A program made the position numbers and the translations under genes. A model generated the notes under the pieces. The model saw nothing but the letters and a program-made list of their open reading frames with translations. It had not been told where the DNA came from and ran no database searches. Positions 53,512-56,938 of a stretch of DNA of 64,000 bases are shown in pieces. The stretch is taken from the NCBI RefSeq assembly GCF_023276355.1, contig NZ_JALLPL010000001.1, positions 2,232,001 to 2,296,000 of the forward strand, written 5' to 3'. The stretch is from Haloplanus sp. XH21 (GTDB taxonomy: Archaea; Halobacteriota; Halobacteria; Halobacteriales; Haloferacaceae). Position 1 is the stretch's first letter. Each line of letters opens with the position of its first letter.

Positions 53512-53868
53512 ATGGCCGACCGAGCGCTCGAATCGACGACGCTGGTGCACCGACTCACGCTGATCACCCTCTCGCGGCTCGACCGGGCGGACGAGACGCC
53601 GTCCCACGCGGGAGACATCACCCGCGCGTGTGACGACCACCTCGACGCCGTCGGCGCCGACGTGGTGGGCGGCGTCTCCGAGGCCGACGTCTCGCGGGCA
53701 CTCAACGAACTCGACGCCGACGGCCTCGTCGCAGGCGACGCCGCGAGCGGCTCGCCCGTCGGCAAGGGCCGACCCACGTACGAACCACAGTTCGACGCCG
53801 CGGCGCTGCGCGACGCGTTCGGAGACGACGACCGCCTCGAAGGGGTGCTCGACCGGCTCGATCGGTAA
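53512..53868 (+). CDS. Winged-helix DNA-binding protein
   Basis: A 118-aa protein. Residues 5-85 have the pattern of a winged helix: TLVHRLTLITLSRLDRADE, then VSEADVSRALNELDADGLVA then GDAASGSPVGKGRPTYEP, where the wing turns. It resembles the DNA-binding part of PadR- or Cdc6-C-type regulators. No partner domain is present, so it probably acts as a homodimer. Position just downstream of element copy 7. Confidence 0.7.
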   Translation: MADRALESTTLVHRLTLITLSRLDRADETPSHAGDITRACDDHLDAVGADVVGGVSEADVSRALNELDADGLVAGDAASGSPVGKGRPTYEPQFDAAALRDAFGDDDRLEGVLDRLDR

Positions 53869-53875
53869 CCGACGG

Positions 53876-55153
53876 TCACCAGCCGCCCGCGAGCGCCTCG
53901 CCTCCCGCGAAGCCGCCGTCGTATGCGCGGTCGATGCCGAGGAGTCGGTTGTACTTCGCGAGACGTTCCGAGCGGGCGAGCGACCCGATTTTGATCTGTC
54001 CGGCGTCGAGACCGACCGCAAGGTCGGCGATGGTGGCGTCACAGGTCTCCCCGGAACGAGCGGAGACCACCGGCGACCACCCGGCTGCCTGCGCGCGTTC
54101 GAGCACGCGCCGCGCTCGCGTCATCGTCCCCGCCTGGTTCGGCTTGATGAGGGCGGCGTTGGCCGCGCTGGCGTCGATAGCCCGCCCCAGACGGTCCGGG
54201 TTCGTCGCCAGCAGGTCGTCACCGAGGAGTTGCACGCGGTCACCGACGCGGTCGGCCAGCCGCGTCCACCCCGTCCAGTCGTCCTCGGCGAGGGGATCCT
54301 CGACGGAGACGACGGGGTAGTCATCGACCCATCGGGCCACGCGGTCGACCATCGCCTCGCGGTCGAGCGTCTCGCCGCCGAGCGTGTATCGGTCACGTGC
54401 CGGGTCGTAGAAGTGGGTCGCCGCCACGTCGACGGCGAAGGCCACGTCGTCGGGCGCGGGCTCGAAGCCGGCGTCGCGGACGGCGCCAGCAAGCAGGTCG
54501 AAGGCCGCCGCTGCGTCGGGCACGGCGGGGATGAACCCGCCCTCGTCGGCGACCGGCGGTGGATGCTCGCCGTCGGCGATGCGGTCGGCGGCCGCGCGCC
54601 GCACCGCCCACACCGTCTCCAGCGCCTCGGGGTACGTCTCCGCGCCCGCGGGGACGACGAGGAAGTCCTGAATCGACGGGCCGGCGGCGGCGTGAAGGCC
54701 GCCGCTCAAGATGTTGACCATGGGGAGCGGCATCGCTCCCGGCCCCGATTCGGGCGCCAGCGATTCGTAGAGTGGCCGGTCGGCGGCGTCGGCCGCGGCG
54801 TGGGCGACGGCGCCCGAGACGCCGAGGACGGCGTTGGCGCCGAGACGCGACAGGTCGTCGGTACCGTCGTGATCGACGAGCGCCTCGTCGATGCCCGCCT
54901 GATCCGTCACCGGTCGCCCCGTGACGACCGGCGCGAGTTCCTCCGTCACCGCCGCGACCGCCTCGCGCACCCCACGGCCGCCGTATCGGTCGCCGCCGTC
55001 CCGGCGCTCGACCGCCTCGTGAGCGCCCGTGCTCGCGCCCGCAGGGACGGTGAACCGACCGTTCCCGTCGCCGGTGTCGACCCGGACGCGAACCGTCGGG
55101 TCGCCCCGCGAGTCGAGCACTTCCCACGCCTCGACCGACACGATCCGGGTCAT
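53876..55153 (-). CDS. Enolase-like protein (probable second enolase)
   Basis: A 425-aa enolase superfamily enzyme. Blocks: AWEVLDSRGDPTVRVRVDTG, PAGASTGAHEAVERRDG, IQDFLVVPAG, ADEGGFIPAVPDA, VSVEDPLAEDDW, ALIKPNQAGTMTRARRV and RSGETCDATIADLAVGL, so the metal ligands and the catalytic Lys/Glu are all in place for 2-phosphoglycerate dehydration. However the haloarchaeal enolase usually lies in a ribosomal-protein/RNA-polymerase operon (rpoK-eno-rps2), whereas this one is the second gene of a kinase operon and is quite divergent. I think it is a paralogue that may use another phosphorylated substrate. It overlaps the upstream kinase by 4 bp (ATGA). Confidence 0.72.
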   Translation of the reverse strand: MTRIVSVEAWEVLDSRGDPTVRVRVDTGDGNGRFTVPAGASTGAHEAVERRDGGDRYGGRGVREAVAAVTEELAPVVTGRPVTDQAGIDEALVDHDGTDDLSRLGANAVLGVSGAVAHAAADAADRPLYESLAPESGPGAMPLPMVNILSGGLHAAAGPSIQDFLVVPAGAETYPEALETVWAVRRAAADRIADGEHPPPVADEGGFIPAVPDAAAAFDLLAGAVRDAGFEPAPDDVAFAVDVAATHFYDPARDRYTLGGETLDREAMVDRVARWVDDYPVVSVEDPLAEDDWTGWTRLADRVGDRVQLLGDDLLATNPDRLGRAIDASAANAALIKPNQAGTMTRARRVLERAQAAGWSPVVSARSGETCDATIADLAVGLDAGQIKIGSLARSERLAKYNRLLGIDRAYDGGFAGGEALAGGW

Positions 55154-56175
55154 AGCGTCGCCGCCTCCTCGCGGGTCAGCGCCGCGAACTCGGCGAGCGT
55201 CGCCGCGTCGCCCCGGAGCGTTCGCTTGGCGACGCGGCGAAGCGCGTCGGCCGTCGCCGCGTCGACGTATTCGACGGGGGATTTGCCGTCGGCGCGCGCG
55301 AGCATCAACACCGCGAGTTCGCCGACCGTTTCGGCCTCGATATCCCAGTCCACCGCGCGGTCGTAGGCGTCCCAGAACCGGTCGGCGGCGTCGGCGTAGG
55401 CCGCGTGTTGCTCCTGATTGTGCATCGACTTGATGTAGAGGTGGTTGCACATGAACGCGGTGTCGAAGGCGGGGTCGCCCCAGTGGGCCACCTCGAAATC
55501 CAGGATCCAGGGGACGGTCCCGTCCGAGCGGTCGACGAGGACGTTCTTCGGGCTGTAGTCGCCGTGGACGAGGGTTCGGGAGACGTCCATGATCCGGTCG
55601 ATTTCGGCGTGGATGGCGTCGGCCACGTCGGGGTTGCGCTCGGCCGTCGCGCGGTGGTACGGATCGATGCGCAACTGATCGAACGGGCGTTTGCTGGCGA
55701 ACGCCTCCCGGACATCGGGGTCGTCGGCCGCGGCGTCGTGGACCGCGCCCAGGGCCTCGCCCACTGCCTCGGCGACGGCGGCGTCGACGCGCCCGTCGAG
55801 CAGCTCCCGTTTCCACATCGTGGCCCCCTCGGGCGCGCATTCGATGGCGACGACGTGGTCGTCCGTCTCGCTGACCACGCGCGGCACGCGGACGTTCACG
55901 GCCGCACCGGTGAGGACCGCGTCGTAGGTGCGGATCGCCGCCGCCTCGTTGTGGACGCGGTCGACGTCGGCCGGCCAGTCGTCCTCGACGTCCAGGTTCG
56001 GCAGCGGACGCTTGACGACCACGCAGTCGTCGTCCCAGGTGACCTGATAGACGTGGTTGGAGACGCCACCGCCGAGCGATCGGGCCGTCGGCGAGGCGCC
56101 CTGCGGGACGACGCCGTGACGCTGGAGGTGGGCCACGGCGTCAGCGGGCGTGAACTCGGGAGCTTCGTCTGGCAT
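55150..56175 (-). CDS. Phosphotransferase, aminoglycoside/fructosamine-kinase fold
   Basis: A 341-aa protein-kinase-like small-molecule kinase. The N-terminal lobe has SLGGGVSNHVYQVTWDDDCV then VVKRPLPNLD (the Lys of ATP binding). The catalytic loop is LVHGDYSPKNVLVD (HGDxxxxN) near residue 200, and the metal site WILDFEVAHWGDPAFD. The family phosphorylates small hydroxyl compounds such as methylthioribose, homoserine, choline or aminoglycosides. Its 3' end overlaps the enolase-like gene by 4 bp, so they form a coupled operon; a kinase followed by an enolase-fold dehydratase hints at a sugar-acid pathway. Confidence 0.82.
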   Translation of the reverse strand: MPDEAPEFTPADAVAHLQRHGVVPQGASPTARSLGGGVSNHVYQVTWDDDCVVVKRPLPNLDVEDDWPADVDRVHNEAAAIRTYDAVLTGAAVNVRVPRVVSETDDHVVAIECAPEGATMWKRELLDGRVDAAVAEAVGEALGAVHDAAADDPDVREAFASKRPFDQLRIDPYHRATAERNPDVADAIHAEIDRIMDVSRTLVHGDYSPKNVLVDRSDGTVPWILDFEVAHWGDPAFDTAFMCNHLYIKSMHNQEQHAAYADAADRFWDAYDRAVDWDIEAETVGELAVLMLARADGKSPVEYVDAATADALRRVAKRTLRGDAATLAEFAALTREEAATL

Positions 56176-56293
56176 ACACAGTCACGCACCCCCCGGCTAC
56201 TTCATCGTTGCTCCCGACGCCACGTCGGTGGCCGTCAGACGGGCGTTCGACGAGCGGGAAACGGTTATCTCCGTCACGGAGCGAGGAGTACGC

Positions 56294-56938
56294 ATGTCTC
56301 CCATCAGACGCTGTCACGTCTGCGGGACCCACTTCCGGCCGTCACCGGACCGCCGCCACGGCCGGATCGACTGTCGAAACACCACCGGTCCCGACGTGAC
56401 GCTCCCGACGACGGCGTTCGTCTGTGCCGACTGTCGACCGGAAGTCGTCGACCTCACGCGACACTGGGAGCCGCGTGACCCGTCGGCCGACGCCTGTAGC
56501 TTCTGTGCCGAACCGACCGACGGGACGGGACGGATCGACCTCGCGAGCATCGTCGACGACCGCGTGGTCTCTCAGGGGACGTATCTGCTCTGTCGGCACT
56601 GCGAAGATGTCTTCGAGACCTTCCTGGCCGACCTGCACACGGGGCTCGAGTTCCCGGACGCGTGGAGTCACACTCCCGCGCCGGGGGGCGCCGTCTTCGA
56701 CCGCGAGGGCGACCTGCGCGTGACGACGACGGCGCCGACCGCCCCCGAATCCCGGCTTCGCCTCCTCGACGACGGCGATCCGATCGTCGAGGCCATCACC
56801 GAGGGCGCACCGCGCGAACGCGCCCGCGAGTTCGTCACCGCGTTCGAGGCGTTCGACGCCGAGGGGGGTGCCGACCCACGACGGATCGGCAACGCCGTCG
56901 TCGAGGGGAATCCCCACCTGCGTTCCGCGCAGGACTGA
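56294..56938 (+). CDS. Multi-cysteine zinc-binding protein, haloarchaeal
   Basis: A 214-aa protein with four cysteine pairs: RCHVCGTHF (6-14), FVCADCRPE, DACSFCAEPTDG and LLCRHCEDVF (about 95-105). These would form two zinc ribbons. The C-terminal half (110-214) is acidic with no clear motif (LEFPDAWSHTPAPGGAVFDR). No function known to me; regulatory or RNA-related roles are common for such proteins. The ATG at 56294 starts just before the first Cys pair; upstream frames lack support. Confidence 0.6.
   Translation: MSPIRRCHVCGTHFRPSPDRRHGRIDCRNTTGPDVTLPTTAFVCADCRPEVVDLTRHWEPRDPSADACSFCAEPTDGTGRIDLASIVDDRVVSQGTYLLCRHCEDVFETFLADLHTGLEFPDAWSHTPAPGGAVFDREGDLRVTTTAPTAPESRLRLLDDGDPIVEAITEGAPRERAREFVTAFEAFDAEGGADPRRIGNAVVEGNPHLRSAQD

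Follow-up and report, generated by a model that had tools for sequence, protein, structure and literature searches.

A kinase-linked enolase subfamily with a fixed, altered active site suggests a short, so far undescribed pathway for an uncommon small sugar acid

Within the genome of the salt-loving archaeon Haloplanus sp. XH21, a stretch of 64,000 nucleotides (contig NZ_JALLPL010000001.1, positions 2,232,001 to 2,296,000 of the forward strand, in the following the window) holds the gene of an enolase paralogue joined to the gene of a small-molecule kinase, which raises the question why an enolase should be kept together with a kinase and which compound the two enzymes would convert. Judged from sequence, the paralogue belongs to a separate subfamily of the enolase fold, here called the SAR type, whose active site differs in a fixed way, whose regular partner is a kinase and whose chemistry probably is enolase chemistry. 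The kinase-enolase pair suggests that some uncommon small sugar acid is used by a short pathway not described so far. The features concerned, in positions of the window, are the following:

55150..56175, minus strand: APH-fold small-molecule kinase, 341 amino acids, first gene of the pair (PF01636, 81.4 bits, cut-off 23.2)
53876..55153, minus strand: enolase paralogue of the SAR type, 425 amino acids, second gene of the pair (TIGR01060, PF00113, PF03952, signature, tree)
55150..55153, minus strand: ATGA, the four bases shared by the end of the kinase gene and the beginning of the enolase gene
55543..55566, minus strand: catalytic loop HGDYSPKN of the kinase, residues 204-211, invariant in 8 close relatives
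55492..55500, minus strand: metal-binding DFE motif of the kinase, residues 226-228 (D226, F227 and E228 invariant in 15 diverse members)
54665..54667, minus strand: codon of Asp163, which replaces Glu168 (yeast number)
54059..54061, minus strand: codon of Ala365, which replaces His373 (yeast number)

As the gene-like open reading frames on either side (53512-53868 and ~56150-56938, the listed start of the second perhaps being too early) are both on the plus strand, kinase and enolase were read as a two-gene unit. Both enolase domains (PF00113 and PF03952) are present in the second gene product, which scores 449.5 bits with the NCBIfam equivalog TIGR01060 eno (cut-off 300), matches many solved enolases at the sequence level and was predicted to fold with a pLDDT (predicted local distance difference test) of 89.2. 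A role as the glycolytic enolase was nevertheless rejected, as the three contigs of the genome (2.94 Mb) hold three PF00113 genes, one of which is a canonical copy elsewhere. This copy, at C1:394553, has the canonical signature and lies among ribosomal-protein genes, with S9 before and S2 after it (recognised by eye), and since it occupies the ribosomal context, the window enolase is a paralogue outside the archaeal rpoK-eno-rps2 context. A preliminary description of the window had stated as much, along with the four-base overlap, which was confirmed as ATGA; it had further reasoned that the lack of any other enolase would make the window gene the glycolytic one, and its reading is left standing by the copy at C1:394553. 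Its statement that all catalytic residues are in place, in turn, had to be given up, as the window enolase carries Asp163 for Glu168 and Ala365 for His373 (yeast numbers, assigned by motif), whereas K345, E211, K396, H159, S39, R374, S375 and the Mg ligands D246, E295 and D320 are kept.

These two substitutions are not a peculiarity of one gene. Alignment of 83 distinct enolases, from which four short tblastn pieces were left out (two of locus L099, one of L039 and one of L048, the last being a broken copy in genome G135), revealed three signatures, i.e., the canonical one in 23 sequences, the SAR type in 49 and a third type in 11, with no mixed signature among them. Two of the 49, L062 (cut by a contig end) and L095 (frameshifted), were counted as partial and stand outside the tree and outside the 47 full-length sequences. 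All 23 enolases with the canonical signature carry E168 and H373, while residue 168 is D in 47/47 full-length SAR-type sequences. For the tree and for the comparison of contact residues the SAR and canonical groups were set by the motif SARSGE or SHRSGE, so that the residue-373 column is true by definition there; independent counts of this residue come from the full signatures of the 83 enolases and from 33 loci which were picked by their kinase and carry an enolase, where D168 was found in 33/33 and A373 in all 32 that reach this residue. Of 15 residues that contact substrate or metal in yeast enolase, 13 show no difference within or between the 47 SAR-type and the 23 canonical sequences, which leaves 168 and 373 as exceptions, and the Mg ligands, Lys345, Glu211, Lys396 and the phosphate-binding Ser39, Arg374 and Ser375 are without change in the 47. 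Just four alignment columns separate the two groups fully (E. coli positions 168, 207, 370 and 394), a fifth (position 36) does so nearly, and all four are active-site residues or direct neighbours of these. Compared with canonical enolase (EC 4.2.1.11), the SAR type therefore shares both Pfam domains, a score above the equivalog cut-off and the metal, catalytic and phosphate contacts, and it differs by Glu168 to Asp, His373 to Ala, Gly209 to Ala and Thr397 to Ile or Val (yeast numbers, by motif), by a separate place in the tree, by its link to a kinase and by its coexistence with a canonical enolase, which was found in 11/11 SAR-carrying genomes checked.

In a tree built from 81 sequences, one side of a branch with a support of 100/99 comprises all 47 SAR-type enolases, and the 11 third-type enolases form another group (100/100); the root is the midpoint, and nothing is claimed from the join of the third-type and haloarchaeal canonical enolases, which the program flagged as long-branch. 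The 17 haloarchaeal SAR-type sequences are one set (100/100) nested among bacterial ones, which suggests a transfer of the SAR-type enolase into haloarchaea.

The third type is represented in the window genome as well, where the enolase gene at C1:573239 overlaps a downstream kinase gene with DUF4147 and MOFRL domains, the family of class II glycerate 2-kinases, so that this genome has one normal enolase and two kinase-linked ones. This second, separate kinase-enolase pair (L001:122-2745, i.e., genome C1:571860-574483, minus strand) is an observation in its own right: a MOFRL kinase adjoins 11/11 third-type enolases (from 10/12 genomes of the genus and Natronomonas aquatica), which carry Leu for His159 and Glu for His373 and keep Glu168. 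It resembles the window pair in being a kinase-enolase pair and differs from it in these residues and in the Pfam family of its kinase.

The kinase of the window has the PF01636 domain, the catalytic loop and the DFE motif of the APH superfamily, and G205, D206, P209, K210 and N211 are invariant in 15 diverse members. Its model, built from these 15 sequences with a mean pLDDT of 93.7, finds its nearest solved folds in 5-methylthioribose kinases (Z ~35-38, 16-17% identity), with PsiK, LxmK and others ranking next and many APH enzymes among the nearest folds; by this predicted fold the protein is a small-molecule kinase, and the fold does not name the substrate. The 5-methylthioribose kinase MtnK is the nearest relative by both solved fold and sequence (2olc, E 1.3e-7, Z ~36), the structural alignment showing 17% identity. 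A role in methionine salvage was rejected, the kinase reaching 45.8 bits with the MtnK model TIGR01767 (cut-off 275) and no salvage gene being recognised among its neighbours, as was one in antibiotic resistance, since it stays far under the cut-offs of the aminoglycoside and macrolide models (NF033068 APH(3'), 20.1 bits against 205). Pfam at E 0.001 listed just APH and a below-cut-off TCAD9 match, and hence neither MOFRL/DUF4147 nor PF02595 and PF00485 of the glycerate kinase classes I and III. A 2007 study, in the excerpts available, distinguishes three glycerate kinase classes with no APH-type enzyme among them (PMC2063504).

Do the two genes belong together beyond this genome? In a class-wide sample the kinase was matched in 3/194 genomes at E 1e-20 and a window-type enolase at E 1e-110 in the same three, and within the genus both occur together in the same 7/12 genomes. 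When named genomes were scanned with a profile made from eight kinase sequences, 23 loci came up, from haloarchaea, Acidobacteria, Actinomycetota, Bacillota, Rhodothermota, Bacteroidota, Atribacterota and Planctomycetota, 18 of them with an enolase on the same stretch; for two others, L057 and L074, a SAR-type enolase lies elsewhere in the genome. Searching plasmids with the kinase yielded 32 matching records, 20 of which were listed and 15 fetched, all of the latter with an enolase within 6 kb (15/15), whereby the loci are partly redundant (L081/L084, L086/L091, L079/L090). Pairwise distances of kinases and enolases correlate with r 0.79 over 28 chosen pairs and with 0.64 over the 19 bacterial pairs, in both cases with 0/5000 permutations as high. 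As both genes occur in the same 3/194 and 7/12 genomes and the pair is met again in several bacterial phyla, chance does not account for the pairing, and the conservation on which the preliminary description had made its idea of a pathway depend is there. The four-base overlap is found in 17/33 measured loci (starts chosen by script), the remainder showing a short gap, reversed order or genes kilobases apart, and from this variety of order and spacing it follows that the association outlives gene order.

Several observations on single genomes stand beside these counts. G135 has no match to the kinase and a mere remnant of a window-type enolase (L048:8950-9444, codons 33-110 and 330-422), as if this one species of the genus had lost the pair, and in G173 a distant kinase homologue (L042:5808-8332) is split into pieces of 38% and 44% identity by an apparent mobile element with TnpA- and TnpB-like reading frames, which we take to be of the IS200/IS605 type. 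The Phycisphaerales metagenome-assembled genome to which L074 belongs has its SAR-type enolase directly beside a PfkB-family kinase (L106:2872-3897 and 1417-2766), and no APH kinase was found in the short stretch fetched around it. In the planctomycete loci L072 and L074 the APH-type kinase follows a gene which by eye resembles dihydropteroate synthase (rough gene calls), with no enolase adjoining, and these kinases possibly have a different job.

Taken together, kinase and SAR-type enolase are read as a dedicated two-step module, to which a probability of about 0.58 is given. First, the APH-fold kinase would transfer phosphate from ATP to the 2-hydroxyl of a small 2,3-dihydroxycarboxylate other than D-glycerate; subsequently, the SAR-type enolase would eliminate the 3-OH, yielding phosphoenolpyruvate (PEP) or a close analogue. 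In yeast enolase, Glu168, Glu211 and His373 surround the C3 hydroxyl and a water. Of the SAR-type site, the carboxylate, phosphate and Mg2+ contacts as well as Lys345 and Glu211 are kept, so that it should bind a 2-phospho-carboxylate and begin with proton abstraction, while Glu168 and His373 beside the C3 hydroxyl are lost. The phosphorylated intermediate would not suit canonical enolase, and as a consequence the kinase would need an enolase of its own, which would explain why both are retained and lost jointly. The preliminary description had proposed a pathway of a kinase and an enolase-fold dehydratase acting on a phospho-sugar acid, and this is still the best reading, given that sugar-acid enzymes neighbour the pair in other organisms; what has to be amended is that the active site is not the complete canonical one and that the substrate may be as small as glycerate.

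It is conceivable that the two proteins do not act in sequence, the enolase-like protein having a non-catalytic task or other chemistry (another leaving group, the hydration direction or epimerisation) and sharing with the kinase just a pathway or regulon. Such an arrangement would fit the replacement of two active-site residues, the varying sets of neighbours and the five measured loci where the genes lie 2.7-5.7 kb apart, in four of these on opposite strands. The conserved Mg ligands, Lys345/Glu211/Lys396 and phosphate residues (47/47), however, speak for a 2-hydroxy acid in phosphorylated form and for proton abstraction of the normal kind, and the kinase keeps its catalytic Asp, Asn and DFE motif, so that this explanation appears quite improbable.

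With regard to the substrate, the fixed loss of Glu168 and His373 together with the canonical enolase in 11/11 genomes means that the intermediate probably is not D-2-phosphoglycerate. A plain glycerate route, in which a D-glycerate 2-kinase of a new type would be followed by a spare enolase converting D-2-phosphoglycerate to PEP, is hence considered unlikely, although it has evidence of its own. All listed contact residues except E168 and H373 are kept, and a D-2-hydroxyacid dehydrogenase, nearest to the phosphoglycerate dehydrogenase and glyoxylate reductase models, lies directly beside kinase or enolase in eleven loci; this arrangement is seen in Rhodococcus, Cupriavidus, Rhizobium, Paraburkholderia and Sphingobium, often along with an FAH-family protein, a glyoxalase-fold (VOC) protein and a cupin. 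In two Rhizobium plasmids PEP carboxylase follows, and the one-carbon setting of Rhodococcus plasmid L088, where a folate-binding GCV_T protein lies downstream and FolD- and PurU-like genes were seen by eye (rough gene calls), would suit a serine-cycle-like route; as a general role the serine cycle was rejected, PEP carboxylase being present in just 2/53 loci, and it is kept within the D-glycerate explanation. A second enzyme for the same step, on the other hand, needs no fixed substitutions, and the yeast enolase variants H373N and H373F reportedly retain ~10% and ~0.0003% of the activity, respectively. Besides, the window genome already has a kinase of the MOFRL class, characterised members of which make 2-phosphoglycerate according to the 2007 study (PMC2063504).

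Over all 53 loci, some of which are cut short and some near-duplicates, an FAH protein was found in 13 and a D-2-hydroxyacid dehydrogenase in 14, with neither beside the pair in the genus of the window; LacI regulators and sugar ABC and SSS transporters recur. Sinorhizobium has an RbsB-like transporter, an SDR, a UxuA-like protein (under the model cut-offs), an SMP-30 lactonase, kinase, enolase, FAH and a further SDR, while the Roseibium and Paracoccus plasmids show a transporter, a LacI regulator, kinase, enolase, FAH hydrolase, SDR and a sugar ABC transporter. With the model of 2,4-didehydro-3-deoxy-L-rhamnonate hydrolase (cut-off 500) the FAH proteins of these three loci reach 342-368 bits, those of the other scanned loci far less (122-171 bits). 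The pair shares FAH with the non-phosphorylative L-rhamnose/L-fucose route (SDR plus FAH diketo-acid hydrolase) in these three genera and differs from it by this score under the cut-off; the route is not known to employ a kinase or an enzyme of the enolase subgroup. Persicobacter has a class II aldolase, a protein that matches the L-fucose isomerase C domain weakly and under the cut-off, and a PfkB kinase on one strand, and an AraC-type regulator and aldehyde dehydrogenase followed by kinase and enolase on the other; Halomarina and Haladaptatus show MR/MLE enzymes and SDRs, the latter also an HpcH-type aldolase.

Glycerate may arise from several of these sets, as FAH cleavage of a 6-hydroxy diketo acid yields pyruvate and glycerate, and aldolase with aldehyde dehydrogenase, or the reduction of hydroxypyruvate, likewise leads to glycerate; the FAH proteins near the L-rhamnonate diketo-hydrolase model and the Persicobacter aldolase and aldehyde dehydrogenase are such neighbours, and they would suit a glycerate substrate. 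The FAH model with the best match is one of the L-rhamnonate route, and for D-glycerate a special enolase would be superfluous; on these grounds L-glycerate, reacting by way of L-2-phosphoglycerate, is tentatively favoured, and most of the remaining probability falls to an acid substituted at C3. The kinase may thus possibly be an L-glycerate 2-kinase and the SAR type a "mirror" enolase that would convert L-2-phosphoglycerate into PEP. For MOFRL-class kinases the 2007 study gives three values for L-glycerate at 13-34% of the D rate (PMC2063504).

The same operons can be read with a longer sugar acid as substrate, bearing a carbon chain on C3 and undergoing the same chemistry, so that kinase and enolase would replace a sugar-acid dehydratase in an ATP-dependent manner and their product, a 3-deoxy enol phosphate, would feed the SDR dehydrogenase and the FAH hydrolase. 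The order kinase-enolase-FAH-SDR with sugar transporters and LacI regulator in Roseibium and Paracoccus agrees with this, as do the transporters and LacI regulators recurring elsewhere. Moreover, no classical dehydratase was found among the listed genes in ~9 kb on each side in these two, the plasmid gene tables being incomplete and the absence of a gene there a weak indication, and E168D together with H373A would free space beside C3. Other dehydratase-type genes already stand beside the pair in Sinorhizobium, Halomarina and Haladaptatus, however, and with S39, H159 and most contacts unchanged, a long chain should need more than four or five altered columns; a longer substrate therefore appears rather doubtful.

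Some findings speak against the two-step module and its preferred substrate. Two loci with a kinase of the family, L071 and L072, belong to genomes where just a canonical enolase was found (both metagenome-assembled), and L076 has a kinase with no enolase beside it (at the locus only). As for L-glycerate, the enzyme keeps Lys345, which acts as the base on the D-isomer, and the dehydrogenase family near the pair in 14 loci is D-specific by name. The window pair itself lacks metabolic neighbours, so that the pathway is drawn from distant relatives, mostly 30-70% identical, and as the surrounding genes vary from group to group, the pairs may not all share one substrate.

Two further neighbourhoods deserve mention. 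The VOC protein occurs near the pair in seven loci (L096:5751-6773, similar in L083, L085-L087, L091 and L097), with a cupin in all seven and a LacI match in four; in Sphingobium it is annotated as 3,4-dihydroxyphenylacetate 2,3-dioxygenase, and its substrate could identify the pathway. Azospirillum brasilense presents a setting unlike the other loci, with a PEP_mutase-family protein (L082:927-1769), an iron alcohol dehydrogenase and a PhyH dioxygenase within ~7 kb upstream of the pair.

In the open-access literature searched, no description of the pair or of a kinase-linked enolase was recognised. The paralogue passes the cut-off of the glycolytic-enolase equivalog despite two replaced active-site residues, and its relatives in plasmid records are labelled phosphopyruvate hydratase; the D168/A373 signature, tied to a dedicated kinase, would tell such genes apart, stop this class of misannotation and open an undescribed carbon route to testing with two purified proteins. 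As third-type enolases beside MOFRL kinases have Glu at residue 373, the question is raised whether this same residue, His373, has been the site of more than one re-specialisation of the enolase scaffold. L-glyceraldehyde is a product of L-2-keto-3-deoxygalactonate cleavage in fungi (PMC11219438). If the assignment to L-glycerate were true, L-glycerate from L-hexose-type acids (by diketo-acid cleavage) or from L-glyceraldehyde would enter central metabolism by this route, and a second stereospecificity would exist within the enolase subgroup, across archaea and bacteria, which has hitherto been annotated as glycolytic enolase.

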